From positions 1-64,000 of the forward strand of contig NZ_JALCYY010000014.1 of the NCBI RefSeq assembly GCF_022690685.1: a stretch of DNA of 64,000 bases. Direction: 5' to 3'. How positions within the stretch are numbered: position 1 is the stretch's first letter; every line of letters begins with the position of its first letter. The position numbers were made by a program, and so were the translations under genes. Below, piece by piece: positions 25,115-39,596 of the stretch. The notes under the pieces were generated by a model. It saw only the letters and a list, made by a program, of their open reading frames with translations, did no database searches and had not been told where the DNA came from. This stretch comes from Anaeromyxobacter terrae (lineage in GTDB: Bacteria; Myxococcota; Myxococcia; Myxococcales; Anaeromyxobacteraceae).

Positions 25115-25121
25115 CCCCGGC

Positions 25122-26717
25122 TCAGGCGGCCGCGCGCGACCGCGGCGGCAGCTCGCGGCGCGCCGCGCCGCCGTCCGCCTCGACCTGGAAGAAGGCGATC
25201 GCGGCGCGGAGCGACTTCGCCTGGCCGGCGAGCTCCTCCGCGGTGGAGGCCATCTCCTCGGCCGCCGCCGCGTTCCGGCCGACGATCCGCTCCAGGTCCG
25301 CGAGCGAGCCGCTCACCTCCTCGGCGCTCGCACCCTGACCGTGGGTCGCCCCGGTGATCTCCCGGACGAGGCCGGCGGTCCGCTCCACGCCGGGGACGAT
25401 CTTGGCGAGGGCGCTCCCCGCCTCCTCGGCGACCGCGACGCTCGTCCCTGCGAGCGCCCCGATCTCGCCGGCTGCGCGCCGGCTCCGCTCGGCGAGGCGC
25501 CGGACCTCGGCAGCCACGACGGTGAAGCCGCGGCCGTGCTCGCCCGCGCGCGCGGCCTCGATGGCGGCGTTCAGCGCGAGGAGGTTGGTCTGGTAGGCGA
25601 TCTCCTCGACGATCGAGATCCGCTCGCCGATCTCCTTCATCGCGGCGACCGCCCGCCCGACCGCCTCGCCCCCGGCGCGGGCGTCGCGCGCCGCGGTGGT
25701 CGCGGCCGCGCCGGTGCGGGCCGCCGCCTCCGCGGTCCTTTGCGCGAGCGCCGCGATCTCCCGCATCGCCGCGGCGGCGCGCTCGGCGGACGCCGCCTGC
25801 TCGGAGGAGCCGTGCGAGAGCTCCGCCGAGCTCTGCGCGAGCTGGCCGCTCCCCGCCGCGACGCCCTCCGCCGCCGCCTGCGCGCGCGCCACCACCTCGC
25901 GCAACGCCGCGAGCATCCGGCGCAGCGCCTCGAGCAGCCGCCCGACCTCGTCCGCCCCGTCGTCCTCGACCGCGAGGTCGAGCCGTCCGGCGGCGACGGC
26001 GTCGAGCGCCTCGCCGAGCCGGGCGAGGCGCGCCGTCACGGTCCGGACGAGCAGCGCGGAGACGACGAGCCCCACCGCGAGCACCAGCGCGCCGAGGCCG
26101 AGCGAGCGGAGGAGCGCGTCGCGGAGCGCGGCGTCCAGCGTCTCGGTGTGCACGTCCACGCCCAGGAAGAACTCGGTCCCCGCGGGCGAGCGGAGCGGTA
26201 CGTACACCGAGCGCAACGAGTCGGTTGGGTCGACGTAGGTGTCGAAGTGGACCTGGTGGTCCGCCCACGCCGCGCGGAGCCCGGGGCTCGGGTGCGCCGT
26301 CCTCTGGAAGAACGCCGGCCCGGTGCCCTTCTCCAGCTCCTCGCGCGTGGCGCTCGAGGACGTGAACGCGCCCGAGCCGTCGCGCACCACGACGGTGTAG
26401 ACGTAGGCGAGCCCGCTCTCCTCGACGAGGGCCGACAGGCGGCGCTGCAGCGCGAGGTGGTCCGCGCGGGAGACCGAGCTCGCGTCGCGGATCCCGTCGT
26501 GGAACGGCGCGAGGAAGAGCGCCGCCGCGCGCGCGCAGGTGAGCAGCTTGTCGTCCAGGGCGGCGCGGATCTGCGCCTCCTGCGTGCGCTGCGCGAGGGC
26601 GACGAACGCCGCGGTGACGAGCAGGTTGAGGGCGGTGAGGACGACGAGGAGCTTCGTCCGGAGCTTCAGGTCCCGGAACCGGAGCGGCAACCCGCGCTCC
26701 CTCGCTGGTCTGACCAT
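25122..26717 (-). CDS. Methyl-accepting chemotaxis protein, downstream of the nos operon
   Basis: A 531-residue receptor. A membrane helix at about 20-41 ([20 protein letters not shown]) is followed by a periplasmic sensor of about 150 residues with a single-Cache-like pattern ([37 protein letters not shown]), a second helix ([19 protein letters not shown]), and a HAMP domain ([21 protein letters not shown]). The cytoplasmic coiled coil contains the signalling tip [28 protein letters not shown]. No C-terminal CheR-tether pentapeptide is seen. It starts 101 bp after nosY on the same strand, with an inverted repeat CCCGTGA/TCACGGG at 26750-26768 between them. It may be co-transcribed or have its own promoter. 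Confidence 0.92.
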
Positions 26718-26818
26718 CGCCCCCTTCTAACGCCGCTGCGACGCTGTGACCCGTGACGCGTTCACGGGACGCTGGCCGGCGTGGGGTCGGGGCGGCACGG
26801 AGCGCACCCCCTCCCACC

Positions 26819-27667
26819 TCACAGGTCGATGTGCCCGAGCCGTCGGATCGCGGCCGCGACGGGCAGGACGATCCACGCGAGCACCGAGGCCCCGAGGAGC
26901 AGCGCCGCGCCCACCGGGCCGCCGGTGAGGCGCAGGAGCGCGAGCGACGCGGCGCCGAAGGCAGCCGTGCCCTGGACGGCGAGGAGCGACCCGACCCGGA
27001 TCGCGCTCGCCGGGTTCAGGACGACCGAGGCGACGAGGAGGCGCGACGCCGCGGTCGAGCGGAGCAGCGTGGCGATGCCCAGGGCCGCGACGTCGACGAG
27101 CACCGTCGCGGCGAACCAGACGACGAGCGCGAGCGCGAGCGCCCGGACCCGCTTGCGCCCCACCGCCCCGGCGCCGACGAGCGCCGCGATCGCGAGGAAC
27201 ACCGCGGTGAGGAGGATCGCGCCCAGCACGAGGAGGAAGTACGCGCCCGCGCCCTCCTCCCCGGCGTTCAGGAACACGACGAGCCCCGCCGCGCCGAAGC
27301 CGATGAGCTCGGCGGCCGAGAGCGCGACGAAGAGGCCGGCGAGCTGCCCGAGGAGGACGACGCCCCGCCCGATGGGCTGCGAGAAGAGGAGCTCGGCGGT
27401 GCCCCGCTCCGGCGCGACGGCGAGCACCCCCATCACGAGCGCCGCGAGCGGCACCACCAGCACCACGAGCTGCACGAGCGACACGCTGGTGCGCGCGAAG
27501 TCCTCGAAGCCGCTGCCGCCCGAGAGGATGTAGCCGCTCGCGGCGACCCCCACGGCGAGCAGCGCGAACACCGCCGCGAAGATGGCGGTCCAGCGCGAGC
27601 GGACCGCGAGCGCGATCTCCTGGCGCGCCACGAGGGCGAGGGCGGCGAGCCGGGTCGGCGCGCTCAT
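26819..27667 (-). CDS. nosY: NosY, permease subunit of the NosDFY copper-centre maturation ABC transporter
   Basis: NosY forms the membrane part of the NosF-NosY-NosD complex that supports CuZ assembly in nitrous oxide reductase. The 282-residue protein has about six helices. Visible marks are EIALAVRSRWTAIFAAVFALLAVGVAASGY at the start, APERGTAELLFSQPIGRGVVLLGQLAGL (coupling-helix region), and LFLAIAALVGAGAVGRKRVRALALALVVWF. The last helix ends IRRLGHIDL. Its ATG overlaps the nosL stop (ATGA). It is the last gene of the ten-gene operon. Confidence 0.92.
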   Translation of the reverse strand: MSAPTRLAALALVARQEIALAVRSRWTAIFAAVFALLAVGVAASGYILSGGSGFEDFARTSVSLVQLVVLVVPLAALVMGVLAVAPERGTAELLFSQPIGRGVVLLGQLAGLFVALSAAELIGFGAAGLVVFLNAGEEGAGAYFLLVLGAILLTAVFLAIAALVGAGAVGRKRVRALALALVVWFAATVLVDVAALGIATLLRSTAASRLLVASVVLNPASAIRVGSLLAVQGTAAFGAASLALLRLTGGPVGAALLLGASVLAWIVLPVAAAIRRLGHIDL

Positions 27668-28122
27668 CTGCCGTCCGGTGGCCCGGCGGGGCCGAAGATC
27701 TCCGCCGCGCTGGCCGGGACGCCGCCCTGCGCGGCGGGATCCGCGTCGCGCGAGGCGGCGTCCGCGTGGGCGACGAGGTGGGAGCCCATGGGCGTCTCGA
27801 GGCGCGGGCTCCGCGTGTACACGGCGCGCGCGGTCCGGACCCACTCGCCCGTGCGGTGATCGGCGACCCACGCCACCGCCCGCGCGCGCGGGCGGGACGC
27901 CGCGAGGTGGCGGGCGAGGCAGCCGAGGTCGTCGAAGAACAGCGGCTCCTCGCCGGGCGCCACGAGCTGCGCGGCGAAGTGGCGGTCCGAGACCGCCATC
28001 CGGCAGAACGCGCAGGCGTCGTGGCGCGTGTCGAGCGGCGCGGGGGCGGGCGGCCCGGACCGGCAGGCGAGGGCAAAGAGGAGCGCGACCGCGGGGAGCG
28101 CGCGAGAGAGGGAGCACGTCAT
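27664..28122 (-). CDS. nosL: NosL, copper-delivering lipoprotein for NosZ maturation
   Basis: NosL is an outer-membrane or periplasmic Cu(I)-binding lipoprotein that feeds copper into NosZ through NosDFY. The 152-residue product has a lipobox signal (LPAVALLFALAC, Cys20) and the family's metal motif CAFCRMAVSDRHFAAQL (Cys-x2-Cys-x-Met). FFDDLGCLARHL and WVADHRTGEWVRTARAVYTRSP follow, then the conserved THIS-like region LETPMGSHLVAHAD near the C-terminus. Both ends overlap neighbours (ATGA with nosF and nosY), so the operon is translationally coupled here. Confidence 0.92.
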   Translation of the reverse strand: MTCSLSRALPAVALLFALACRSGPPAPAPLDTRHDACAFCRMAVSDRHFAAQLVAPGEEPLFFDDLGCLARHLAASRPRARAVAWVADHRTGEWVRTARAVYTRSPRLETPMGSHLVAHADAASRDADPAAQGGVPASAAEIFGPAGPPDGR

Positions 28123-29042
28123 GCGCGAACCTCCGGCCCGGCGCGCTCGGCGGCGCCGACGAGCTCGTCGTAGAGGAGATCGAGCCTCCCCTCCTCCGAG
28201 GAGAGCCCGCGCAGCTCGGCGCCGCTCGCGCGCACGGCCTCGAGCGCGGCGGCGCGCACCGCGGCGGGCCCGATCACCACGATCTCGTCGTCGTGGAGCG
28301 CGGCGCCGGGCGCGATGCGCGCGAGCGCGGCGGCGAGCGTGGCCGGAGCGCGCGCGACGCGCAGGCGCAGCACCCCGCGCCGGGCGAGGCGATCCGCGAG
28401 CTCGGCGCGATCGAGGTCCCCCACGAGCGCCCCGTCCACGAGCACCGCCACCCGATCGGCGAGCCGCTCGACGTCGGCGAGCTGGTGCGTGCTGAAGAGC
28501 ACCGCGCGCCCCTCGCTGCGGCCGCGGTCGGCGAGCGCGTGGGCGGCCGCGAGGCCGGCGCGGTCGAGGGAGGAGGTGGGCTCGTCGAGCAGGAGGATGG
28601 GCGCGTCGGCCAGCGCCACCACGGCGAGCCCGAGCCGCTGGACCATGCCGCCGGAGTAGGTCCCCACCGGACGGTCCGCCGCGCCCTCGAGCGCGGCCAT
28701 CCCGAGCGCCGCCTCGGTGCGCCCGGGCGCGGCGCCCCGCAGCCGCCGGTAGAACTCGACCACCTCGCGCCCGCTGAGCGCCTCCGGGAACGCGACCTTC
28801 TGCGGGAGGAACGAGACTCCGCGCCGGGCCTCGGGCAGCGCCGCGGAGCGGAGCGGCTCGCCCACCTCCACGCTGCCGTCGGTCGGCCGGACGAGCCCGG
28901 CCGCGGCCTTGAGGCAAGTGCTCTTCCCGGAGCCGTTCGGGCCGAGGAGCGCCACGACCTCGCCGCGGCGCACCGCGAGGTCGACGCGCGAGACCGCCCG
29001 CTGGCGGCCATACCGCTTGCCGAACCCGTCGAAGCGGATCAC
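28119..29042 (-). CDS. nosF: NosF, ATPase subunit of the NosDFY complex
   Basis: The GTG at 29042 overlaps the nosD stop. The 307-residue ABC ATPase has Walker A GPNGSGKST, Q-loop region VSFLPQKVAF, signature YSGGMVQRLGLAVVAL, Walker B ILLLDEPTSSLD and the switch His in LFSTHQL. A C-terminal extension (about 210-307) with ARAPATLAAALARIAPGAAL and AALEAVRASGAELRGLSSEEGRLDLLYDEL is typical of NosF and related single-substrate ATPases. It powers NosD/NosY in copper-centre assembly. Confidence 0.92.
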   Translation of the reverse strand: MIRFDGFGKRYGRQRAVSRVDLAVRRGEVVALLGPNGSGKSTCLKAAAGLVRPTDGSVEVGEPLRSAALPEARRGVSFLPQKVAFPEALSGREVVEFYRRLRGAAPGRTEAALGMAALEGAADRPVGTYSGGMVQRLGLAVVALADAPILLLDEPTSSLDRAGLAAAHALADRGRSEGRAVLFSTHQLADVERLADRVAVLVDGALVGDLDRAELADRLARRGVLRLRVARAPATLAAALARIAPGAALHDDEIVVIGPAAVRAAALEAVRASGAELRGLSSEEGRLDLLYDELVGAAERAGPEVRA

Positions 29043-30433
29043 GCCGCCTCCGCGGGCCGCCGAGGTCGCGCGCCGGCGAGCAGCGCCCCGCCCGCGGCGA
29101 GCGCCGCGAGCGAGCCCGCGAGCCCGAACGGATCGGGTCTCCGCGGCCGCGGCGAGGGGCGGGGGACGGCGGGGAGCGGGGGCGGGCGCGCGAGGGGCCG
29201 CCGGTCGGCGACCTCGGCGGGCGCGAGCACCGGGAACGCGCGCTCGGCCACCCCCAGCGCCGCGGCGGCGAGGCTCTGGGCGAGCAGATCGGCGGCGGTG
29301 AGGTTGCCGCGCAGGTGATCGAACAGGCTCCCGAGCACGAACGGCCGATCGGAGACGCCGTCGCCGTCGAGGTCGGGCTCGTCGTTGTCCGACCAGTAGT
29401 TGCCGTCGAGGACGGTGTCGGTCCGGCGGCCCACGAGCGTGAGGGAGGTGAGGTTCGCGATGAAGGCGTTCCCCTCGATCCGGTTCTCGCCGCACGAGTC
29501 GTACACCACGAGGGCGGTGTCCGACTCGGCCACGACGTTCCTGCGCAGGAGGTTGCGGTAGGAGCCCTCGAGGAAGACGCCGCGCGCGTTGTCCGCGAGG
29601 AGGTTGTCCTCGGCGAGCGAGTCGTCGCAGGCCTTGAGGAGCAGGCCCACCGAGGCGAAGCCGCGGTTGTGGAGGAAGCGGTTCCGCCGGAAGACGAGCC
29701 GCCGCGAGTACATGAGCACGCCGCCGGCGTCCGAGCGCTCGAAGAGGTTGTCCTCGAAGACGTTGTCGTCCGAGTACATGAAGTGGATCGCGTAGCGCAG
29801 GTCGCGGACCGAGTTGCCGCGGATCGTGCCGTGCGGCGAGGACTGGATGTAGAGACCGTCGCGGCAGTCGGCGATGTCGTTCCCCACGAGCGTGAACCCG
29901 TCCGTGTTCCAGACGTGGATGCCCGAGCCCTTCTCGCCCGGATCCTTCCCGCGGATGCCGCGCACCACGTTCCCCTCGACGCGCGCGCCGGGCGCCTCCC
30001 GCAGGTACACGCCGAAGAGCGCGTTCGCGATCCGGTTGTCGCGCACCACGGCCCCCGGGGCGGAGACGTGGATGCCCGAGCTGTCGCGGCCGAGATCACC
30101 GCCGCCGCGCCCGTCCACGTCGAGCCCCTCGACCGTCACCCCCGCCGCCCGGATCCGCACCACGCTCCCCTTGCCGGAGCCGCGCAGCAGCGGCCGCCCG
30201 CGCCCGGCGAGCCGGAGCGGGCGGTCGATCACGAGGTCGCCGTCGTACGTCCCCGGCCCGACCTCGACGGTCGCGCCCGCAGGCGCTGCGTCGACGCGCG
30301 CCTGGAGCGGGGAGGCCTCGCCGGGGGGTGGCCGGCCCTCGAGCTGCCCCGGCGCGACGCTGGGCATGTCGCCCGCGGCCTGCGCCGCGAGGAGCGCCAC
30401 GAGGAGCCCCTCGACGAGCGGCGCCGCCGTCAT
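29039..30433 (-). CDS. nosD: NosD, periplasmic right-handed beta-helix maturation protein
   Basis: NosD binds NosF-NosY and helps load the CuZ centre of NosZ. The 464-residue protein has an N-terminal signal (LVEGLLVALLAAQAAG) and a long series of parallel beta-helix rungs. Examples are GTYDGDLVIDRPLRLAGRGRP, SGIHVSAPGAVVRDNRIANALFGVYLREAPGARVEGN, DGLYIQSSPHGTIRGNSVRDLRYAIHFMYSDDNVFEDN and NYWSDNDEPDLDGDGVSDRPF. The YAIHFMYSDDN motif is a strong NosD marker. The C-terminus is Pro/Arg-rich with a hydrophobic segment (FGLAGSLAALAAGGALLAGA) that could anchor it. The ATG at 30433 overlaps the nosB stop. Confidence 0.93.
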   Translation of the reverse strand: MTAAPLVEGLLVALLAAQAAGDMPSVAPGQLEGRPPPGEASPLQARVDAAPAGATVEVGPGTYDGDLVIDRPLRLAGRGRPLLRGSGKGSVVRIRAAGVTVEGLDVDGRGGGDLGRDSSGIHVSAPGAVVRDNRIANALFGVYLREAPGARVEGNVVRGIRGKDPGEKGSGIHVWNTDGFTLVGNDIADCRDGLYIQSSPHGTIRGNSVRDLRYAIHFMYSDDNVFEDNLFERSDAGGVLMYSRRLVFRRNRFLHNRGFASVGLLLKACDDSLAEDNLLADNARGVFLEGSYRNLLRRNVVAESDTALVVYDSCGENRIEGNAFIANLTSLTLVGRRTDTVLDGNYWSDNDEPDLDGDGVSDRPFVLGSLFDHLRGNLTAADLLAQSLAAAALGVAERAFPVLAPAEVADRRPLARPPPLPAVPRPSPRPRRPDPFGLAGSLAALAAGGALLAGARPRRPAEAA

Positions 30434-31110
30434 GCCTGCTCGGCGGCGAGCTCGCGGCGAGCGCCGCGGACGGCGAGGACGAACGCGACCGCCATCGCGA
30501 CGGCGGCGACGATGATCGCCCACGTGCCAATCCCCGGGTACGAGTACACCTCGAAGTTCGCGAGCTGCTTCGACCCGAACACCGGCGGCATGAACGGCGG
30601 GACCTTCACGGGCGCGGTCGGCGCGAGCTCGTGGCCGTACGCCCACATCGTCTTCGCGAACGACCACAGGGAGAACGCGCCGACGTACAGCGACAGGACG
30701 GTCACGTCGAGCACGTTCCCGACCGTGCCGAACACCGCCGCGCGGAGGAGCAGGAGCGCGAGCGCGCCGAAGACGAACGGCATCCACAGGAACTCCTTGA
30801 AGCTCTCCTGCGCGAGATCGTGCATGCCGATGTAGTGGTTGAGGAGGTTGATCTCCTTCAGATCCTGGCCGCCGTTGCCGCCCACGAGGCGCGAGGCGTG
30901 GATGTGGAGCCGCAGGCCGTCCTGGTACTGCGGCGCGAACATCGTCATGTCCCACAGCGACTGCGTGAGGGCGACGACGAGCAGCGCCGCCGCGAGCACG
31001 AGGAGCGCCCGCGGCGCGGCGCTGATCGGGGAGTCCAGCACCCGATGGCTCCTCACGATGTAGCCGCGCAGCCGCCCCCGCGGCGCCGCCATCACCAGCT
31101 CCGATCGCAT
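30430..31110 (-). CDS. nosB: NosB, membrane protein characteristic of clade II nos operons
   Basis: NosB is an integral membrane protein found next to nosZ only in atypical (clade II) gene clusters; its role is not known. The 226-residue product has about five membrane helices: RALLVLAAALLVVALTQSLWDM, FLWMPFVFGALALLLLRAAVF, NVLDVTVLSLYVGAFSLWSF and GTWAIIVAAVAMAVAFVLAV. In between lies the conserved loop QDLKEINLLNHYIGMHDLAQESFKEF, whose NHYIGM stretch is typical of the family. It follows nosZ by 14 bp. Confidence 0.88.
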   Translation of the reverse strand: MRSELVMAAPRGRLRGYIVRSHRVLDSPISAAPRALLVLAAALLVVALTQSLWDMTMFAPQYQDGLRLHIHASRLVGGNGGQDLKEINLLNHYIGMHDLAQESFKEFLWMPFVFGALALLLLRAAVFGTVGNVLDVTVLSLYVGAFSLWSFAKTMWAYGHELAPTAPVKVPPFMPPVFGSKQLANFEVYSYPGIGTWAIIVAAVAMAVAFVLAVRGARRELAAEQA

Positions 31111-31124
31111 CGCCCCCTCCGTCG

Positions 31125-33029
31125 TCAGTCGTGCTCCTCGCCGTGCTTGCGGCCCTTCTCGTCGCCTCCCGCGCGCGGCTTCACGATGAGATAACCCTGC
31201 ATCTCCTGGTGGAGCGCCGAGCAGAAGTTCGTGCAGTAGTAGGGGAACACGCCGGGCTTGTCGGCCTTGATGGTGACGGTCTTCGTCTCGCCGGGATCGA
31301 CGACCAGGTTCCGGTCGTAGCCGAGGAGCCCGAACCCGTGGAGCTCGTCGGTGGTCTGCTCGATGTTGGTGATGGCGAACGTGACGGTGTCGCCCTGGTT
31401 CACCTCGACGCTCGTGGGCGTGATGGTCGAGCGGACCACCACGGTGCGCACGACGACCCGGTCGCCCTCGCGCTTCGGGCCCGCCTCCTTCACGTCCCAG
31501 GTCGCGAGGGGGTGCTTGTTCTCCTCCTTCGGATAGACCTCGATCGGCTTCACCTTGTCCGCCTTGATGATCTGCGCGTAGTGCGGCTCGGGCTCGGTGA
31601 AGGCGTCGTAGAGCAGCTTCATCTTCTCCTCGGTGATGTCGATGAGCTGCGACGACTCGGGCTGGGAGGGGCCGAGGGACAGGTGGCGCCCGTGGGAGAG
31701 CTTGTTCAGGGACACGACGTACTTGCCGTCCGGGCTCACCGTGTCACCCTCGGCGGCGGCGAGGTGGCCGACCGAGTACGAGACCGGGATCTTGTCGACG
31801 ACCTCCCACGTGCCGAGCTTCCACTTCGCGATGGCGCTGTCCACGAACAGCGAGGTGTAGGCGAAGCCGTCCGGGCCGAACTGCGTGTGCAGCGGGCCGA
31901 GGCCCACCGGCACCTCGGCGTCCTTGATCGACTCGTACTTGAGCACCGGGATCCCGTCCTCGTCGCCGATGAAGTCCTTGTTGCGGATCGCCGTCTGCAC
32001 CTTCTCGAAGTTGAAGGCGGTGGTGACGCCCTGGAGCTTGCCCGAGCCGATGATCCACTTGCCGTCGGGAGACACGTCCACGCCGTGCGGCGACTTCCCG
32101 CAGGGCATGAGGTAGATGAGGCCGGGGACCTCGCGCGGGTCGAGCACGCGCACGCCGCCGATCATCTTGCCCTTGCCCTCGGCGATGGACTTCTCGGCGA
32201 GCCGCCAGTCCACCGCGGCGATGTAGTCGCGGTCGCGCTGCGAGGCGGTCACCTCGAGCTTCCCCGTGCCCCGCTCGGAGTTGTAGCAGGTGAAGAACAT
32301 CCAGCCGTCGGACACGCCCTTGCCGGCGTCGCCGAGGTCCCAGTCGAACGGCGGCGTCACGATCTCCCAGCCGAGCGACATCTCGCCCGACTTGGGATCG
32401 ATCTTCACGCCGACGACGACGCCCTTGTAGTCCGTCGCGTACTTCTCGATCGGCGCGTAGGTGCCGAGCGGGATCGGGACCGAGAAGCGCGACGACATCA
32501 TCGCGTACTCGGTGTTCGGCGTGACGAAGGACGAGCCGTGGTTCCCGGAGACGTTCGGGATGGGCCCGAGGATCTGCTTCGTCTTGAAGTCGCGCAGGTC
32601 GATGCGCGCGACCCGGCCGTTCATGTCGTTGATGAACAGCCAGCGGCCGTCGTAGTCGCCCTTCGTCTCGGAGAGCGCCGGGTGGTGGGCGTCACCCCAG
32701 GTGTACGCCCCGAGCATCTTCCGCGTGTCGTCGTCGTACCCGTAGCCCGTCCCCGGGTAAGGCGTGAACACCGGGATGGTGCCGAGGTGGCGCATCGAGG
32801 GCAGCCCGTAGACGAACACCTGCCCGGAGTGCCCGCCCGACGAGAACATGTAGTACTCGTCGAGATCGCCGGGCGCGACGTAGGTCTTCTGCGCGGCCAC
32901 CGCCACGTCCGAGGCGGCGGCTGGCGCGCGGCGCCCGCCCTTCGGCTTCGACGGCGCGCAGCCCGCGACCGAGATCATCGCCAGCGCGGCCGCAGCGATC
33001 GCGACGCGCCTCTTCCCCTGCAACGTCAT
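31125..33029 (-). CDS. nosZ: NosZ, nitrous oxide reductase, clade II (atypical)
   Basis: NosZ reduces N2O to N2 in the periplasm using a CuA electron-entry site and the tetranuclear CuZ site. The 634-residue protein starts with KRRVAIAAAALAMISVAGC: a Sec-like signal with a lipobox (Cys24), not the long SRRxFL Tat signal of clade I. The beta-propeller has the CuZ histidine pair His115/His116 in WGDAHHPALSETKGDYDG, His164 in SGNHGSSFV and more His in CGKSPHGVDVSP, GPLHTQFGPDG and GHLAAAEGD. CuA is at the C-terminus: CTNFCSALHQEMQGY with ligands Cys599, Cys603, His607 and Met610, plus His in DELHGFG. The ATG overlaps the stop of the pentaheme cytochrome gene (ATGA). Confidence 0.96.
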   Translation of the reverse strand: MTLQGKRRVAIAAAALAMISVAGCAPSKPKGGRRAPAAASDVAVAAQKTYVAPGDLDEYYMFSSGGHSGQVFVYGLPSMRHLGTIPVFTPYPGTGYGYDDDTRKMLGAYTWGDAHHPALSETKGDYDGRWLFINDMNGRVARIDLRDFKTKQILGPIPNVSGNHGSSFVTPNTEYAMMSSRFSVPIPLGTYAPIEKYATDYKGVVVGVKIDPKSGEMSLGWEIVTPPFDWDLGDAGKGVSDGWMFFTCYNSERGTGKLEVTASQRDRDYIAAVDWRLAEKSIAEGKGKMIGGVRVLDPREVPGLIYLMPCGKSPHGVDVSPDGKWIIGSGKLQGVTTAFNFEKVQTAIRNKDFIGDEDGIPVLKYESIKDAEVPVGLGPLHTQFGPDGFAYTSLFVDSAIAKWKLGTWEVVDKIPVSYSVGHLAAAEGDTVSPDGKYVVSLNKLSHGRHLSLGPSQPESSQLIDITEEKMKLLYDAFTEPEPHYAQIIKADKVKPIEVYPKEENKHPLATWDVKEAGPKREGDRVVVRTVVVRSTITPTSVEVNQGDTVTFAITNIEQTTDELHGFGLLGYDRNLVVDPGETKTVTIKADKPGVFPYYCTNFCSALHQEMQGYLIVKPRAGGDEKGRKHGEEHD

Positions 33030-34297
33030 GGCGTCCTCCTCGTGTTCGCGGGCTCGCCGCCCGGCTCCCTGGGCTTCGCGGCGGGCTCCTCTTTCTTCGC
33101 GCGCTCCTGCTGCCAGGCGGCGAACGCCTCGCGGAGCTTCGCGATCGCGACCTTCTTCTCCTCGGGCGTGAGCACGATCTGGCGGGAGAGCACCACCGCC
33201 ATCGTGCCGGTCGGCGCCGCGAGGAAGTCGTCGAGGGTGCGGCCGAAGCGCTTCTGCACGTCCTCGACGGCGATCGACAGGTCGGGGCCGATCTGCGCGG
33301 GGCTCCTCACGCCCAGCGACGAGATGCTGTGGCAGACGAAGCAGCCGGTCTTCACGAACCACGCGCCCGGCCCGGTGCGCATCCGCTCCTCCTCCGCCAC
33401 CTCCTGCGGCGTCTGCGGCTCGCTCCGCGGCGCGCCGGGGGCGTAGGACGCCGGCAGCGACGTGCGCCGCCACGACGTGACCAGCATCGCGAGCGCCTGC
33501 ACCTCGCGCGTCGTGAACCCGAAGTTCGGCATCACCGTCTCGGGCACGATCGCCTTCGGCTCCTTGAGGTGCGCCACGTGCCAGGCGAAGGCCGTCTTCT
33601 GGCCGAGCAGGCGCGAGTGGTCGTACTGCTCGGGCGCCTTGTCGCCGACGTAGGTCAGGTCGGGGCCGATCGTGCCGCCGCGCCCGTTCACGACGTGGCA
33701 CGCCCGGCAGCCCTTGTCGCGCACGAGCTTCTTCGCGAGGTTCACCGCGTCGGCGCCCTTGGTCTCGCGCTCGTAGCGGTGGCACAGGTTGCAGTTGATC
33801 TGGATGAGCGCGCCCTTGTCCTCCCAGGCGAGCGAGTACGCCTCGCCGAGGTAGGGCCCGAGCACCGGCTCCTCCCAGTGCGGCGCCGGCCCGTGCGCCT
33901 CGTCCGCGTCGATGGCGTAGCCCTGGCCGCCGTGGCAGGCGGTGCAGCCGAAGCGCTGGACCGGGTGGATCCGGATGATCTCCGGCGGGTGCGTCCGGAA
34001 CGGCTCCTCCGCGTCCTCGAAGCCCTTCCACGGCCCGGCCTGGTGGCAGGTGATGCAGCGATCGGCGCGGCGCAGCTCCGGGGCCCAGATCTGGACGAGC
34101 CCGTCGTGGACGCCCTGCGCCTTCTCCGCGCCGAACTTCTCCTCGACGCGCTTGCGGAACTCGGCCTGGTACCAGCGCCAGTCCTTCGCCCGATCGCTCC
34201 AGACGAACAGGACCGTGGAGACGACGAGGAGCACGCCCACGATCGCGAAGACGAGGCGGTCACGGGAGGCGAACGGCGATGGGGTGACGGGTTCCAT
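33026..34297 (-). CDS. Membrane-anchored pentaheme cytochrome c in the nos operon
   Basis: The 423-residue protein has an N-terminal membrane helix (about 14-34, RLVFAIVGVLLVVSTVLFVW) that is not cleaved, so the rest faces the periplasm. Five CxxCH heme sites are visible: CITCH (81), CTACH (118), CNLCH (169), CRACH (197) and CFVCH (319). Possible Met ligands lie in TVMPNFGF and elsewhere. The last 50 residues are a basic, Pro-rich tail (EPAAKPREPGGEPANTR). Three bases separate it from the cytochrome b gene, and it overlaps nosZ. Its position suggests it takes electrons from the Rieske/cytochrome b pair and passes them to CuA of NosZ. That role is inferred, not seen. Confidence 0.9.
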   Translation of the reverse strand: MEPVTPSPFASRDRLVFAIVGVLLVVSTVLFVWSDRAKDWRWYQAEFRKRVEEKFGAEKAQGVHDGLVQIWAPELRRADRCITCHQAGPWKGFEDAEEPFRTHPPEIIRIHPVQRFGCTACHGGQGYAIDADEAHGPAPHWEEPVLGPYLGEAYSLAWEDKGALIQINCNLCHRYERETKGADAVNLAKKLVRDKGCRACHVVNGRGGTIGPDLTYVGDKAPEQYDHSRLLGQKTAFAWHVAHLKEPKAIVPETVMPNFGFTTREVQALAMLVTSWRRTSLPASYAPGAPRSEPQTPQEVAEEERMRTGPGAWFVKTGCFVCHSISSLGVRSPAQIGPDLSIAVEDVQKRFGRTLDDFLAAPTGTMAVVLSRQIVLTPEEKKVAIAKLREAFAAWQQERAKKEEPAAKPREPGGEPANTRRTP

Positions 34298-34300
34298 GGC

Positions 34301-35656
34301 CTAGAACCGGGTCGGCATCTCTGGCCAGGCCTGCCACGGCCAGTAGAGGTGCCAGTAGGGGCCGCGCGAGAAGGTGCCGACGATGGTGAGGAGGATCACG
34401 ATCGCGACGATGACGAGGAACACGGCGTTCTGGGTGCGGCGGCTCCGGGGGAACCACCGCCCCGCCGCCGCGGCCGGGCTGCGATCGAGCCACGGCCAGA
34501 CGACGAGGAGCGCGACGAGCAGGCCGGGCAGGATGACGCCGCCGACGAGCGCCCCGTTCACGGTGAAGGAGCCGATCCGGATCGTCGTGTCGGTGACGAT
34601 CTCCTGCAGCCAGAGGAAGTACCAGGGGGCCTTCGCCGGGTTCGGCGTGACGAGCGCGTTCGCCGGCTCCTCGAGCGGCGACGGGACGAACACCGCCAGG
34701 ATCGAGATCACCGCGACGGTGCCGAGCATGACGAGGGCGACGCGGCGGGTGAGGTCCGGGACCGAGCTGACCGTGGTCTCCGGCCGCTCGACGGACGAGG
34801 CGCGGATGAGCGGCCCCTGCCCGCGCGCGACGCCGAGCAGCGAGTAGGTCTTCGTGCGCGTGCGCTCGGCGGGGACCTCCGCCGGCGCGGGCAGGCGCGT
34901 CGCGTGGTCGGCGCGCGCGAGCCCGCCGTCCTTGCGGATGCGCCACATGTGGTAGGCGAACAGCACCCCGAGCACGCCCGGCAGCACGATCACGTGCAGG
35001 ACGTGGAAGCGCGTGAGCGTCGGCTGGTCGATGGCGCGTCCCCCGAGGAGGAGCTCGCGCATCTGCGCCCCGACGAGCGGCACCGCCGACGCGATGTTGG
35101 TGCCGACCGTCACCGCCCAGTAGGCGAGCTGGTCCCACGGGAGCAGGTACCCGGTGAAGGACAGGAACAGGGTGAGGAGGAACATCACGACGCCGATGAC
35201 CCAGTTCCACTCGCGGTTCTGGCCGCGGCCGACGCCGTTCTTGTACGCGCCGGTGAGGAAGACCCGCGCGAGGTGCAGGAAGACGACCGCCACCATGAGG
35301 TGCGCGCCGAGCCGGTGCACCGCCCGGATCCAGGAGCCGAACGTGACGACGTTCTCGATGTCCTTCACGGACCCGTAGGCGCGCTCGACCGAGGGGATGT
35401 GCAGGAACAGGAGGGGGATCCCGGACGCGACGAGGAGCGCGAGGAGCGCGGTCGAGATGGTCCCGAGCCAGAGCGAGTAGCGCCACTCCATCGACTCCTT
35501 GAGCGAGCGCGCCGGGAACCAGTGGAGGATGAAGTTCGCGACGATCGCGTCGCCCGCCTCGCGATCGGAGGCGGGGCGCACGCTCCACAGGCGGCGCAGG
35601 TGGACGCCTGGCGCGGGGCGGGGCGCTTCGGGCGGGACGGTCGGCAGGACGGCCAT
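34301..35656 (-). CDS. Cytochrome b subunit of a Rieske/cytochrome b quinol-oxidising complex
   Basis: The 451-residue protein has about eight membrane helices. The N-terminal half resembles cytochrome b6 with paired heme ligands in WIRAVHRLGAHLMVAVVFLHLARVF and in RFHVLHVIVLPGVLGVLFAYH, and the GYLLPWDQLAYWAVTVGTNI region near the quinol site. The C-terminal half resembles subunit IV, with PAKAPWYFLWLQE at the place of the PEWY motif (Glu replaced, APWY). FSFTGYLLPW and ILPGLLVALLVVWPW support the assignment. Together with the Rieske and multiheme c it would form a bc-like quinol:NosZ route. Nine bases separate it from the Rieske gene. Confidence 0.93.
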   Translation of the reverse strand: MAVLPTVPPEAPRPAPGVHLRRLWSVRPASDREAGDAIVANFILHWFPARSLKESMEWRYSLWLGTISTALLALLVASGIPLLFLHIPSVERAYGSVKDIENVVTFGSWIRAVHRLGAHLMVAVVFLHLARVFLTGAYKNGVGRGQNREWNWVIGVVMFLLTLFLSFTGYLLPWDQLAYWAVTVGTNIASAVPLVGAQMRELLLGGRAIDQPTLTRFHVLHVIVLPGVLGVLFAYHMWRIRKDGGLARADHATRLPAPAEVPAERTRTKTYSLLGVARGQGPLIRASSVERPETTVSSVPDLTRRVALVMLGTVAVISILAVFVPSPLEEPANALVTPNPAKAPWYFLWLQEIVTDTTIRIGSFTVNGALVGGVILPGLLVALLVVWPWLDRSPAAAAGRWFPRSRRTQNAVFLVIVAIVILLTIVGTFSRGPYWHLYWPWQAWPEMPTRF

Positions 35657-35665
35657 GGCGCCTCC

Positions 35666-36166
35666 TCAGGCGGTCGTGAGGCGGAAGCTGCGCTCCACCG
35701 GCTTCGCGAGATCCACGACGAGCTGCCCGTCGTCGGGGGCGACCGAGAGCGCCCACCACTCGAGCGGCCGCGGCGCCGGCCCGGCCACGTTCTGGCCGTC
35801 GCCGGTGTACTGCGAGCCGTGGCACGGGCAGAGGAACCGGTGCGTGAGCCTGAGCTCGGCGCCGCCGACCTTCTTCATGACCGGGGAGGAGAGCGCCTCC
35901 GCGCGGACGGTGCAGCCGAGGTGGGTGCACACCGCCGAGATCGCGTGGAAGACGTTGCCCTCGCGGAACACGAACAGCCGCTGCTCCGGGAGGAACTTCA
36001 TCCCCTCCGGGAACTCGGCGGGGATCCCGAGCTTCACGACCGTGGGCGCGTCGTAGGAGACGTTCGGGACGAGCGAGCGGAGCGACGCGAGCCCCTGGCC
36101 GGCGACGGAGGCGAGCCCCACGCCGATCCCGAGCTTCTTCAGGAACTCCCTGCGATCCGAGGTCAT
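35666..36166 (-). CDS. Rieske [2Fe-2S] protein with Tat signal
   Basis: Rieske proteins take the first electron from quinol in bc-type complexes. Residues 3-12 are a near-perfect twin-arginine signal (SDRREFLKKLG) followed by a hydrophobic stretch that would anchor the protein. The cluster ligands are in CTHLGC (Cys80, His82) with the disulfide Cys85, and CPCHGSQY (Cys113, His116) with Cys115. A GP loop (VAGPAPRPLEWWAL) follows. The 166-residue length is normal for a bacterial Rieske. Its ATG overlaps the stop of the flavoprotein gene, linking the two in translation. Confidence 0.94.
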   Translation of the reverse strand: MTSDRREFLKKLGIGVGLASVAGQGLASLRSLVPNVSYDAPTVVKLGIPAEFPEGMKFLPEQRLFVFREGNVFHAISAVCTHLGCTVRAEALSSPVMKKVGGAELRLTHRFLCPCHGSQYTGDGQNVAGPAPRPLEWWALSVAPDDGQLVVDLAKPVERSFRLTTA

Positions 36167-38115
36167 GGCGTCCCCTCCGGCGCGGCCGCCGCGGTCCACC
36201 GCTCCGTGAACGTGAAGCGCTCCATCGTCATCGCGTCCGTGGGGCAGCGGATGGCGCAGAGCCCACAGCGGATGCAGGCGGTGTCGTCCTTCAGCATCGC
36301 GGAGAGCGGCAGCCCCTCCGCCGCGGCGAGCGCCACCACCGCGGCGCGCTCCGCCTCGGGCAGCTCCACCTCGTCGAGCGGCACGAGCGCGAGGCAGTAC
36401 TCCGGGCAGACGTCGACGCAGCGGCTGCAGAGGACGCACTTCTCCGGGTCGTAGATGGTCTGCACGTGGCAGACGAGACAGCGCGCCCCCTGCTGGCGCG
36501 CCTCGAGCTCCGAGAAACCGACCTCGACCTCGGCGATGCCGGTGCGCCGGTCCACCGGCAGGGTCGGCGGCGCCTGGCGGTCGAGGAGCTCGTAGCCGGG
36601 GATCATCCGGTACTCGCGCGTCGGGATCTTCTCGACGTCGAGCCGCGTCTCGAGCCTGGCGCGCTCCCCGGCGAGGAACCGGTGGATCGACCGCGCCGCG
36701 CGCTTGCCGTTCGCGATGCCCTCGATGAGGTTCCGCGGCCCGAAGGCGACGTCGCCGCCCGCGAACACTCCCGGCGCGGACGTGGCGAGGGTGCCCTGGT
36801 CCACGCGGATCGTGCCGCCGGGCGTGAGCTCGACGCCGTCCTCCGGGTGCAGGAACGACAGGTCCGCCCGCTGCCCGATGGCGAGGATGCAGCCATCGGC
36901 CTCGAGCGGCATGACGTCGGCGTCGTCGTAGCGGGGCGCGAAGCGGCCGCTCGCGTCGAACACGGAGAGGACCTTGCGCAGCTCCACCGCCCGGAGCTTG
37001 CCGCCCTCGCCGAGGAACCGGCGCGGGCCGCGCCGGGGCAGGAACCGGACGCCTTCGCGCTGCGCCTCCTCGAACTCCTCGTGGCCCTGCGTGGTGCGCA
37101 GGACGGGCATCTCCTCGAACGCCTCGAGGGAGACGATGGTGACCTCCGTGGCGCCGCCGCGCAGCGCCTCGCGCGCGGAGTCGAGCGCCTCCTTGAGCCG
37201 CGCGTCGGCCTCGCCGCCGGTCTCGCCCGAGAGCGCCCGGAGCTCCTCCTCCCGGCTCACACGCAGCGCGGTGCGCGCGGCGTCGAACGCCACGAACCCG
37301 CCGCCGATCACCACCACGCGCCGCCCGAGATCGAGCCGGAACCCCTGGTTCGCGTTGAGCAGGTAGTCGATGGCCTTCACGACGCCGTCGAGCTCGACCC
37401 CCGGCAGCTGGAGATCGCGCCCCTTCTGCACGCCCACCGCGAGGAAGACCGCCTCGAACCCGTCTGACCGGAGCGCCGCGAGGCCGCGCTCCGGCGTGAG
37501 CGGCGTCTCCAGCCGGAGCGTGACGCCGAGCGAGAGGATCGCGTCGATCTCCGCCTGGATCAGGCTGCGCGGGAGCCGGTACTCCGGGATGCCGTAGCGC
37601 ATCATCCCGCCCGGCTCGGCCGAGGCCTCGAAGACCGTGACGTCGTAGTCGAGGAGGGCGAGGTCGTGCGCCGCCGAGAGCCCCGCCGCGCCCGCGCCGA
37701 TCACCGCGACCTTGGGCCGCCGCGCCGCCGGAGTCTGCCCGACACGCTCGACCGGCAGGTGCCCGGCGTAGCGATTCCCCTCGCGCATCGGCTCCGTGCG
37801 CAGCCGGGCCTGCGTCTCCGGGTGCATCGACTCGACGCCGTAGCGCTCGCACAGCGTCCGCTTGAGCGCGCGGATCGTGATGGGACGATCCACGCTCCCC
37901 CGCCGGCACGCCTCCTCGCACGGCGCGGCGCAGACGCGGCCACACACCGAGGCGAACGGGTTCGGGGCGCGCGCGACGAGGTACCCCTCCTCGTAGCGGC
38001 CCTCCGCGACGAGCTGGACGTAGCGCCCCGCGTCCGTGGCGACCGGGCAACCCGCCTGACACTTCACCTGATCTTCCCAGTCGCGCAGCCCGGGTATGCG
38101 CGCAGCGATCCCCAT
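36163..38115 (-). CDS. GltD-like FAD/NAD(P) oxidoreductase with N-terminal Fe-S domain and C-terminal 2x[4Fe-4S] ferredoxin; first gene of the nos operon
   Basis: The ATG at 38115 gives 650 residues. The N-terminal cysteine module (Cys19, 23, 58, 62, 66, 70 in CQAGCP, CGRVCAAPCEEAC) matches the Fe-S domain of the glutamate synthase small subunit family. An FAD-binding GxGxxG lies at about 140 (VIGAGAAGLSAAHDLALL) and an NAD(P)-binding one at about 280 (VVVIGGGFVAFDAARTA). GILAIGQRAD-like and GVFAGGDVAFGPRNLIEGIANGKRAA segments close the flavin fold. Residues 546-630 contain CLVCH and two clusters of Cys-x2-Cys-x2-Cys-x3-Cys (560-570, 614-624). No glutamate synthase large subunit is present, so it is probably an electron-transfer protein for this operon. 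It is predicted cytoplasmic. Confidence 0.88.
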   Translation of the reverse strand: MGIAARIPGLRDWEDQVKCQAGCPVATDAGRYVQLVAEGRYEEGYLVARAPNPFASVCGRVCAAPCEEACRRGSVDRPITIRALKRTLCERYGVESMHPETQARLRTEPMREGNRYAGHLPVERVGQTPAARRPKVAVIGAGAAGLSAAHDLALLDYDVTVFEASAEPGGMMRYGIPEYRLPRSLIQAEIDAILSLGVTLRLETPLTPERGLAALRSDGFEAVFLAVGVQKGRDLQLPGVELDGVVKAIDYLLNANQGFRLDLGRRVVVIGGGFVAFDAARTALRVSREEELRALSGETGGEADARLKEALDSAREALRGGATEVTIVSLEAFEEMPVLRTTQGHEEFEEAQREGVRFLPRRGPRRFLGEGGKLRAVELRKVLSVFDASGRFAPRYDDADVMPLEADGCILAIGQRADLSFLHPEDGVELTPGGTIRVDQGTLATSAPGVFAGGDVAFGPRNLIEGIANGKRAARSIHRFLAGERARLETRLDVEKIPTREYRMIPGYELLDRQAPPTLPVDRRTGIAEVEVGFSELEARQQGARCLVCHVQTIYDPEKCVLCSRCVDVCPEYCLALVPLDEVELPEAERAAVVALAAAEGLPLSAMLKDDTACIRCGLCAIRCPTDAMTMERFTFTERWTAAAAPEGTP

Positions 38116-38387
38116 CGCGCTGGATTCTCGGCGCGGCACGAGGACGCGAGCCGGTCTTGCTGGGCACTCCCCAACGTCGACGGTAGGCCGCTCGGTCACT
38201 CCGCCTGGGCTCGTCGCCTCGGGTGTGGCACGACGCCGCGGAACGCGCGCTCCCGGGGCGGCGAGGAGGCCGAGGCCGGCGGGCGGACGTGCCGGACGAG
38301 AGCGCGGCGGCGTGGGGCCGGACGGCTCCCGGCCCGGTGCCGCCCGCGCGGCGCGTGCCGAATTTCCGGTCTTCCAGGAGGTCACAC

Positions 38388-39596
38388 ATGCGAGCAGTGG
38401 TGTGGAAGGGGCCGGGGAAGGTGTCCGTCGAGCAGGTGGAGGACCCGCGGATCGAGAGCGCGACGGACGTGCTCGTACGGATCAGCACCGCCGGTATCTG
38501 CGGCAGCGATCTGCACATGTACGAGGGGCGCACCGCCGCCGAGCCGGGCGTGGTCATGGGCCACGAGAACATGGGCGTCATCGAGGAGGTGGGGGCCGCG
38601 GTGCAGCAGCTGCAGAAGGGTGACCGGGTGGTCCTGCCCTTCAACATCGCCTGCGGCACCTGCTTCAACTGCTCGCGCGGCTACACGAGCGCGTGCCTCG
38701 TGACGAACGACGAGGCGGCCGGCGCGGCGTACGGCTACGTGGGGATGGGCCCGTACAAGGGCGGCCAGGCGGAGCTCCTGCGCGTCCCATGGGGCGAGGC
38801 GAACTGCATCAAGCTGCCGGGCAAGCCGGGCGACGAGCTCGAGGACGACTTCCTGCTCCTCTCCGACATCTTCCCGACCGGCTACCACGCCGCGGAGATG
38901 GCGAAGGTGCAGCCCGGCTCCACCGTCGCGATCTTCGGCGCCGGCCCGGTGGGTCTGCTCGCCGCGTACAGCTCCATGCTGCGCGGCGCCGCCGAGGTGT
39001 ACGTCGTCGACGCGATCCCGGAGCGGCTCGAGAAGGCGCAAAAGATCGGCGCCATCGCGATCGACTTCCGCAAGGGGCCGCCGGCCGAGCAGATCCGCAA
39101 CCTGCGCCTCGCGAACCCCCTCGTGCGCGGCGCCATGCGCCGGGGCGAGGAGAAGATGGCGGGCGTCATGTGCGGCATCGACGCGGTCGGCTACCAGGCC
39201 AAGGACTTCGCGGACCCGAGCAAGGAGCACGCGACCTCGGTGACCGAGCAGCTCGTCGAGGTCGTGAACCCCACCGGCGCCCTCGGCATCATCGGCGTCT
39301 TCCTGCCCGAGGATCCGGGCGGCAAGGACAAGGCCGCGAAGCAGGGCGCCTACACCCTGCCGTGGGGCAAGCTGTGGGAGAAGGGGCTCCAGGTCGGAAT
39401 GGGGCAGACGCCGGTGAAGAACTACAGCCTGGTGCTGCGCGACCTCATCATCGCCGGCCGGGCGAAGCCCAGCTTCATCGTGTCTCGGCGCATCCCGCTC
39501 AGCGAGGCGCCCGACGCGTACCGGAAGTTCGATCGGCGCGAGCCCGGCTACACCAAGGTCCTCATCAAGCCCGGCCAGGAGGCGGCGGCGCGCTGA
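38388..39596 (+). CDS. Zinc-dependent alcohol dehydrogenase, formaldehyde-dehydrogenase-like MDR family
   Basis: A 402-residue medium-chain dehydrogenase. Catalytic zinc ligands are in GICGSDLH (Cys) and GHENMGVI (His-Glu), and the structural zinc site is partly visible in CGTCFNCSRGYTSAC. The Rossmann motif is VAIFGAGPVGLLAAY. The long insertion with GMGPYKGGQAELLRVPWGEANCIKLP and HAAEMAKVQPGS, and the C-terminal ILRDLIIAGRAKPSFIVS segment, resemble the glutathione-independent formaldehyde dehydrogenase subgroup. The ATG has a CAGGAGG ribosome site six bases upstream. It is divergent from the nos operon, with 272 bp between starts, which hold the promoters of both. Confidence 0.87.
   Translation: MRAVVWKGPGKVSVEQVEDPRIESATDVLVRISTAGICGSDLHMYEGRTAAEPGVVMGHENMGVIEEVGAAVQQLQKGDRVVLPFNIACGTCFNCSRGYTSACLVTNDEAAGAAYGYVGMGPYKGGQAELLRVPWGEANCIKLPGKPGDELEDDFLLLSDIFPTGYHAAEMAKVQPGSTVAIFGAGPVGLLAAYSSMLRGAAEVYVVDAIPERLEKAQKIGAIAIDFRKGPPAEQIRNLRLANPLVRGAMRRGEEKMAGVMCGIDAVGYQAKDFADPSKEHATSVTEQLVEVVNPTGALGIIGVFLPEDPGGKDKAAKQGAYTLPWGKLWEKGLQVGMGQTPVKNYSLVLRDLIIAGRAKPSFIVSRRIPLSEAPDAYRKFDRREPGYTKVLIKPGQEAAAR

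Follow-up and report, generated by a model that had tools for sequence, protein, structure and literature searches.

A clade II nitrous oxide reductase operon with a predicted NAD(P)-linked Rieske/cytochrome b complex

Analysis of a 64,000-nucleotide stretch of Anaeromyxobacter terrae DNA (hereafter the window) identified a nos operon that may encode, besides its clade II N2O reductase, an NAD(P)-linked complex of Rieske protein and cytochrome b that splits menaquinol electrons between N2O and NADP+, a reading to which we assign a probability of roughly 0.45. The parts of this reading differ in strength. The architecture, in which the positive side of such a complex would lead to NosZ and its negative side would exchange electrons with NADP(H), is predicted with good confidence; least certain is which way the NADP(H) step runs, bifurcation that forms NADPH being the preferred direction. 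Coupling of N2O respiration by quinol-based bifurcation, with half of the menaquinol electrons driven uphill to NADPH, would follow the same scheme and is doubtful in this full form.

Operon organization and distribution

Gene calls on the window placed ten genes, all on the minus strand, in one tight block at 26819-38115:

36163..38115, minus strand: GltD/NfnB-like FAD/NAD(P) oxidoreductase (Pyr_redox_2, Fer4_20 and Fer4; relative of the NfnABC fold)
35666..36166, minus strand: Rieske 2Fe-2S protein with RR signal motif (Rieske family; relatives Kustd1480 and Kuste4569)
34301..35656, minus strand: cytochrome b (N and C halves of Cytochrome_B)
33026..34297, minus strand: pentaheme cytochrome c, membrane-anchored (five CxxCH)
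31125..33029, minus strand: NosZ, Sec-dependent clade II nitrous oxide reductase (TIGR04246, 901 bits)
30430..31110, minus strand: NosB, membrane protein characteristic of clade II loci (position, and homologues beside nosZ elsewhere)
29039..30433, minus strand: NosD, periplasmic beta-helix maturation protein (TIGR04247, 388 bits)
28119..29042, minus strand: NosF, ABC ATPase with GTG start (ABC ATPase family match)
27664..28122, minus strand: NosL, copper chaperone lipoprotein (NosL family match)
26819..27667, minus strand: NosY, ABC-2 membrane subunit (ABC2 membrane family match)

Six junctions overlap by 4 bp (GltD/Rieske, cytochrome c/NosZ, NosB/NosD, NosD/NosF, NosF/NosL and NosL/NosY) and the others are gaps of 9 bp (Rieske/cytochrome b), 3 bp (cytochrome b/cytochrome c) and 14 bp (NosZ/NosB). 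Coordinates and family models thus confirmed the genes, order, overlaps, gaps and families given in an initial annotation of this DNA. NosB matched no Pfam or NCBIfam model and was named by its position directly 3' of nosZ and by homologues that likewise adjoin nosZ in other genomes. A scan of 25000-38800 returned no promoter-like site and terminators at chance level, a result that is uninformative at the G+C content of the window, and FNR/NNR-type boxes were not found 5' of the first gene in the window and eight relatives.

The comparative search that the initial annotation had proposed recovered the same ten-gene order among relatives as well as in several further phyla. The operon is therefore a widespread type, and since its order recurs in other phyla the ten-gene grouping is beyond chance. 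The flavoprotein gene lay directly upstream of the Rieske gene in 26/26 loci of this type, window included, a count made over loci with sequence upstream of the Rieske gene (two more end at a contig edge). Distances across loci for the four upstream proteins and NosZ correlated at 0.87-0.95, as co-inheritance predicts. Within the NosZ clade of the module, L034, L037, L047, L048 and L060 seemed to have lost it, but their contigs stop just upstream of nosZ. Comparison of the loci showed that the four upstream genes form a module, predicted to be an NAD(P)-linked Rieske/cytochrome b module, that travels with this nosZ lineage. The same loci weaken the earlier idea that translational coupling sets the stoichiometry of the products, because the junctions before nosZ and nosB differ widely between orthologous loci (-4 to +586 bp).

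NosZ and the pentaheme cytochrome

The score of NosZ against the Sec-dependent model compares with a cut-off of 625, and its score against the TAT-type model TIGR04244 (430 bits) falls under the cut-off of that model. The N-terminus of NosZ, MTLQGKRRVAIAAAALAMISVAGC, resembles a lipoprotein signal and the protein is probably a lipoprotein (VAGC). Its CuA motif is CTNFCSALHQEM, and nosZ occurs as a single copy in the genome. All five CxxCH motifs were kept in every intact homologue of the pentaheme cytochrome c, which is proposed to carry electrons from the Rieske protein to the CuA site of NosZ.

The GltD/NfnB-like flavoprotein

The product of the first gene has six conserved cysteines in its N-terminal Fer4_20 domain and C-terminal 4Fe-4S motifs comprising C546, C549, C560, C563, C566, C570, C574, C614, C617, C620 and C624. 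In the homologue alignment 17 cysteines showed little or no variation, and the sequence motifs for FAD and NAD(P), including D278, R281 and R285, were retained. NfnABC (9bov/9bp5) was its closest solved relative by profile (1.4e-106) and by Foldseek (6.8e-37), the AlphaFold2 model of the flavoprotein being of moderate quality (mean pLDDT 69), and DALI gave this same structure for Kuste4570 of Kuenenia. No signal peptide or transmembrane segment was predicted in the flavoprotein. To judge from these features it must be a multi-[4Fe-4S] protein of the NfnB/GltD type that lies on the cytoplasmic face of the membrane. Homologous proteins serve as the NAD(P)-side subunit in flavin-based bifurcating enzymes and in anammox Rieske/cytochrome b complexes, and the flavoprotein is proposed to be the N-side subunit of the Rieske/cytochrome b complex. 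Identity as the glutamate synthase subunit GltD was rejected, as scores for TIGR01317/01318 (187 of 448 and 170 of 483 bits) were far under the cut-offs and the GltB partner is absent among the operon genes.

This placement bears on the initial annotation, which had inferred a complete route from quinol to CuA with all four upstream proteins on one electron path. An operon-like block with Rieske and cytochrome b genes and a dedicated pentaheme cytochrome does stand beside clade II nosZ across phyla, but the linear path was not supported, as the flavoprotein is predicted to be cytoplasmic and combines 4Fe-4S motifs with folds for FAD and NAD(P). Gene order and packing are in keeping with a single linear route; however, a flavoprotein that has an NAD(P) site and lacks an export signal or transmembrane segment cannot pass electrons to a periplasmic cytochrome, and we consider such a route highly improbable.

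Alternatively, NosZ could receive its electrons from a conventional menaquinol:cytochrome c oxidoreductase that runs the usual Q cycle, the flavoprotein being a separate soluble enzyme that is merely co-transcribed and serves, for example, redox balance or maturation. Such an arrangement would agree with Wolinella, in which, as reported by Hein in 2017, a Rieske/cytochrome bc complex supports clade II NosZ and N2O respiration; moreover, binding of the flavoprotein to Rieske/cytochrome b in this operon is a prediction. We nevertheless find a separate enzyme unlikely. The flavoprotein is never absent beside Rieske/cytochrome b in testable loci and keeps its Fe-S-rich C-terminal extension. A role as NosZ maturation factor was rejected, because the four-gene module also exists without nosZ (twice in genome G009, and in G016 and G192), where the cytochromes have 7-8 hemes.

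The Rieske protein and cytochrome b

The two closest solved relatives of the Rieske protein were Kustd1480 (9rk3, 1.6e-19) and Kuste4569 (9rk4, 5.4e-19), the next Rieske structures following at 1e-14. Ser118 and Tyr120 are the residues of the high-potential pair; Ser118 was found in 27/27 sequences and position 120 was Tyr or Phe, as in Kuste4569 and Kustd1480. The measured potentials of these two proteins are +303 mV (Kuste4569) and +335 mV (Kustd1480) (PMC12954380). The residues of the operon protein predict a high potential suited to bifurcation.

Cytochrome b is a single chain that joins a b6-like N part to a C part resembling subunit IV, with heme ligands H114, H128, H221 and H236, the last pair spaced 15 residues. 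Canonical bc1/b6f identity was rejected, as a pentaheme cytochrome c takes the place of cytochrome c1/f and APWY replaces PEWY in all aligned cytochrome b sequences. A genome profile search found this cytochrome b to be the sole PF00033 protein, so the operon route is not an addition to a housekeeping bc complex.

An extra N-terminal histidine, His45, was present in 26/26 cytochrome b sequences of nos loci. In the anammox models His43/His62 bind a new heme at the dimer interface that faces the NAD(P) subunit (PMC12954380), the His and Arg positions being matched between the operon and Kuenenia proteins by number only and not by direct alignment. The residue is consistent with a flavoprotein-linked cytochrome b and was rejected as a specific mark of one, because it also occurs in related cytochrome b genes without a GltD-like partner (L167, L172, L174 and L169). 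In the cytochrome b alignment the nos set had no conserved cysteine for heme cN and carried Trp63 there, the cysteine being found only in L167, L172 and L174.

Proposed electron route and its direction

In the proposed mechanism the Qo site of cytochrome b would oxidise menaquinol and send its two electrons along separate branches. The first would reach CuA of NosZ, and then N2O, by way of the high-potential Rieske protein followed by the pentaheme cytochrome c, while the other would pass through the b hemes and a 4Fe-4S chain to the FAD of the flavoprotein and then to NADP+, possibly with an extra heme on His45 at the dimer interface in this low-potential branch. N2O is a very strong oxidant, and its reduction would in this way pull low-potential electrons uphill to NADPH.

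The same anatomy would also serve the reverse direction, in which the flavoprotein oxidises NADPH and delivers electrons through the Fe-S clusters and cytochrome b to menaquinone or into a Q cycle, giving an NADPH-to-N2O chain. Electron flow from NADPH to menaquinone is downhill, and NADPH would not have to be limiting in a heterotroph. Such a chain would, however, waste energy that NADH dehydrogenases conserve, an argument made for Kuenenia (PMC12954380), and the Rieske residues that predict a potential fit for bifurcation also speak against it. We therefore give reverse operation a rather low chance, and bifurcation towards NADPH remains the preferred reading.

Comparison with known systems

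For anammox Rieske/cytochrome b complexes with an NfnB/GltD-like subunit it has been proposed that menaquinol electrons are divided, some going to a strong oxidant and some to NAD(P)+ (PMC12954380); in Kuenenia, too, bifurcation with quinol-driven NAD(P)+ reduction is a proposed mechanism. The operon resembles Kustd1480-1485 and Kuste4569-4574 of Kuenenia stuttgartiensis in its Rieske protein, in its b6-like cytochrome b with an N-terminal His that by residue number may correspond to the extra His of the anammox models (PMC12954380), in an NfnB/GltD-like NAD(P) subunit with 4Fe-4S clusters, and in a multiheme cytochrome c that replaces c1/f. It differs in that cytochrome b and subunit IV are fused in one chain, the cytochrome has five hemes rather than being a hexa/octaheme protein, and the oxidising partner is NosZ instead of a proposed nitrite reductase. 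Heme cN is present in both Kuenenia models, whereas the cytochrome b of the operon lacks its cysteine, and for this reason the complex is described as likely to work like and be related to the anammox complexes, and not as one of them.

In gene content the operon does not differ from the clade II nos operons of Anaeromyxobacter and others, which share the nosZ-nosB-nosD-nosF-nosL-nosY core and the Rieske, cytochrome b and cytochrome c genes; Anaeromyxobacter sp. PSR-1 has the identical ten-gene order. The nos system of Wolinella succinogenes (NosG, C1, C2, H) likewise has clade II NosZ, NosB and a Rieske/cytochrome bc complex, but NosG and NosH are not among the ten genes here, and the operon itself includes the Rieske/cytochrome b set, next to genes for an NAD(P) subunit and for a cytochrome with five hemes. 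The fold of the first gene product, with its FAD/NAD(P)/Fe-S domain, is shared with the electron-bifurcating transhydrogenases NfnABC/StnABC and with GltD; in contrast to these, no NfnA/C or GltB partner is encoded in the operon, the protein has a C-terminal Fe-S extension and its gene adjoins Rieske/cytochrome b. Among the papers searched, none connected clade II nos operons to Rieske/cytochrome b complexes of the NAD(P)-linked kind. Relative to these papers, the novelty lies in assigning the first gene to an NAD(P)-side subunit, the gene content being already known in clade II nos operons.

Significance

Anammox bacteria, from which NAD(P)-linked Rieske/cytochrome b complexes are known, grow slowly, and genetic tests of what these complexes do are hard there. 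The operon puts the module beside N2O reductase in a lineage with cultured strains, such as Anaeromyxobacter sp. PSR-1. Both the oxidant (N2O) and the terminal enzyme are clear here, and the host allows direction and coupling to be measured. Should the complex produce NADPH, the yields calculated for growth of these clade II organisms on N2O would have to be revised, because part of the quinol electrons would bypass N2O. If this is true, the block would serve the reducing power of the cell in the form of NADPH, beyond passing electrons to N2O.

Operon composition and genomic setting

Gene calls confirmed the ten genes of the initial annotation together with their order, strand and junctions; the operon and its neighbouring genes are as follows:
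26819-38115 (minus): operon encoding GltD-like flavoprotein, Rieske protein, cytochrome b, pentaheme cytochrome c, NosZ, NosB, NosD, NosF, NosL and NosY
36163-38115 (minus): GltD/NfnB-like flavoprotein, first operon gene
25122-26717 (minus): methyl-accepting chemotaxis protein (HAMP, MCPsignal), starting 101 bp downstream of nosY
22986-24038 (minus): nitronate monooxygenase family protein, close to the operon
38391-39596 (plus): zinc-type alcohol dehydrogenase, divergent, about 275 bp from the first operon gene

Adjacent genes overlap by 4 bp at six junctions (ATGA at five, GTGA at NosD/NosF) and are separated by 9, 3 and 14 bp at the other three. NosZ is present as a single copy in the genome and matches the family model of the Sec-dependent clade II type, and the operon cytochrome c has exactly five CxxCH motifs and one N-terminal anchor. 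At the window's G+C of 70–79%, spurious long ORFs turn up frequently in every frame, and gene identity was therefore based on family matches. The genome holding the window (contig 46) is 5.65 Mb and 99.98% complete; a genome-wide NosZ search identified Anaeromyxobacter sp. PSR-1 as the closest named relative by nos locus, and PSR-1 grouped with same-genus genomes in the GltD tree. The spacer of about 275 bp is the likely site of the operon promoter, and the chemotaxis gene could be co-transcribed with the operon, a hint of taxis tied to N2O respiration.

Distribution of the operon type

We compared 80 named loci from the NosZ search, ten from relatives and a later-added locus of genome G192, detecting upstream genes with profiles built in this analysis. 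The order GltD-Rieske-cytochrome b-cytochrome c-NosZ was found in Myxococcota, Acidobacteriota, Bacteroidota/Ignavibacteriota, Kryptoniota, Chlorobiota, Zixibacteria and Thermodesulfobacteriota, and the GltD-like gene was present in 26/26 Rieske and cytochrome b loci having sequence upstream, the window included (L049 and L051, where sequence stops at or near the Rieske gene, were left out). Because the same gene order and flavoprotein recur across phyla, the operon itself belongs to a known type that is widespread, and is no peculiarity of this genome.

Loci bearing the module (flavoprotein, Rieske, cytochrome b and multiheme cytochrome c) clustered on the NosZ tree, which has one true module-free group (Verrucomicrobiota/Gemmatimonadales/Phycisphaerales); module losses inside the close NosZ clade were only apparent, as contigs end there. 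Pairwise distances of GltD, Rieske, cytochrome b, cytochrome c and NosZ correlated at 0.87–0.95, partly from shared species history. Six loci (L044, L045, L050, L052, L055, L063) have about 500–830 bp between nosB and nosD, a gap absent from the window that may house an additional gene. Pontibacter genomes (L086, L091, L093) carry two tandem nosZBLD sets about 7 kb apart, and in L045 and L050 the cytochrome b frame is broken into overlapping frames by assembly errors or frameshifts.

The flavoprotein

The flavoprotein scored far under glutamate synthase models, and no GltB partner was found among the operon genes. Its best solved relatives, by profile and by fold, are the bifurcating transhydrogenases NfnABC and StnABC (Foldseek 6.8e-37 to 9bov; AlphaFold2 model, mean pLDDT 69). 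Among aligned sequences from module-bearing nosZ loci (the nos set), Cys19, 23 and, nearly so, 58, 62, 66 and 70 are conserved in the Fer4_20 part, as are Cys546, 549, 560, 563, 566, 570, 574, 614, 617, 620 and 624, which belong to an Fe-S extension at the C-terminus; R513 is invariant. Both dinucleotide folds are conserved, the second with D278/R281/R285, which we take to resemble the NADPH-type site of GltD. No signal or transmembrane segment was found in the flavoprotein, which is therefore predicted to be cytoplasmic.

Likeness to anammox Rieske/cytochrome b complexes

The top two PDB matches of the window Rieske protein were 9rk3 and 9rk4, Kustd1480 and Kuste4569 of Kuenenia stuttgartiensis. 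The Kuenenia complexes combine Rieske, b6-like cytochrome b, subunit IV and multiheme cytochrome c with a putative NAD(P) oxidoreductase; DALI relates this last subunit to 9bp5 (PMC12954380), one of two entries in the window flavoprotein's top match. Their Rieske potentials (+303 and +335 mV) were argued to imply b hemes low enough in potential to reduce NAD(P)+. Their models hold a new heme between two cytochrome b chains, liganded by His43 (Kuste4571) or His62 (Kustd1481), whose propionates lie close to Arg247 or Arg266/Lys267 and Arg511/Arg550 from the NAD(P) subunit (PMC12954380).

In the nos set, cytochrome b has an additional invariant His45, invariant R239/R241 and nearly invariant K242, and Rieske has universal Ser118 with Tyr or Phe at 120; His/Arg positions agree with Kuenenia in a comparison by residue number only. 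His45 is missing in canonical bc-type cytochrome b of relatives (L164, L166, L168, L175) but is found in L167, L172, L174 and L169, a related group lacking the flavoprotein, so that it is consistent with an anammox-type complex and not diagnostic. Unlike the Kuenenia complexes, nos-set cytochrome b lacks a cysteine at the heme cN position. The flavoprotein-free Rieske-cytochrome b modules of L167, L172 and L174 have Cys at this position, and those of L167 and L172 a cytochrome with about 8 hemes.

Proposed electron flow

The composition and conservation of the module are directly observed. From known families, menaquinol would be oxidised at Qo by Rieske/cytochrome b, the Rieske arm would reduce a periplasmic c-type cytochrome, and electrons would enter NosZ at CuA; the pentaheme cytochrome may be the NosZ donor. 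The earlier proposal that all four upstream proteins form one linear path to NosZ is wrong, because the flavoprotein, without signal or transmembrane segment, lies across the membrane from the rest of that path. An NAD(P)-linked Rieske/cytochrome b complex joined to N2O reductase is the better reading, with the flavoprotein presumably docked to the N side of cytochrome b and, in net terms, menaquinol reducing NADP+ in a reaction that N2O would power. With midpoints of -70 mV for menaquinone and -320 mV for NAD(P) (PMC12954380), one electron drops about 370–400 mV in reaching the Rieske cluster and the second rises 250 mV, and the split is thus energetically feasible. Reverse flow, with NADPH electrons entering the quinone pool, is a possible alternative. 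A literature search that covered few subscription papers found no prior statement linking clade II nos operons with NAD(P)-linked Rieske/cytochrome b.

Probable other quinol routes and modules without nosZ

A PF00033 search of the genome returned one cytochrome b, that of the nos operon; in two relatives lacking this nos locus (G003, G006), other cytochrome b genes are present. The genome has 11 NrfD-type genes, which makes further pathways of quinol oxidation probable.

Modules of flavoprotein, Rieske, cytochrome b and multiheme cytochrome (7–8 hemes) also occur in Myxococcota relatives (L171, L173, L177, L178), in stretches examined without nosZ. A phylum search placed such modules, with the flavoprotein gene followed by Rieske, cytochrome b and 7–8-heme cytochrome, at two loci of G009, in G016 and at another locus of G192, with no nosZ in the stretches examined around them and with all their flavoproteins outside the nos clade. 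As the module occurs without nosZ and with other multiheme cytochromes, it is a general device with an exchangeable multiheme output, of which the nos version is one use.
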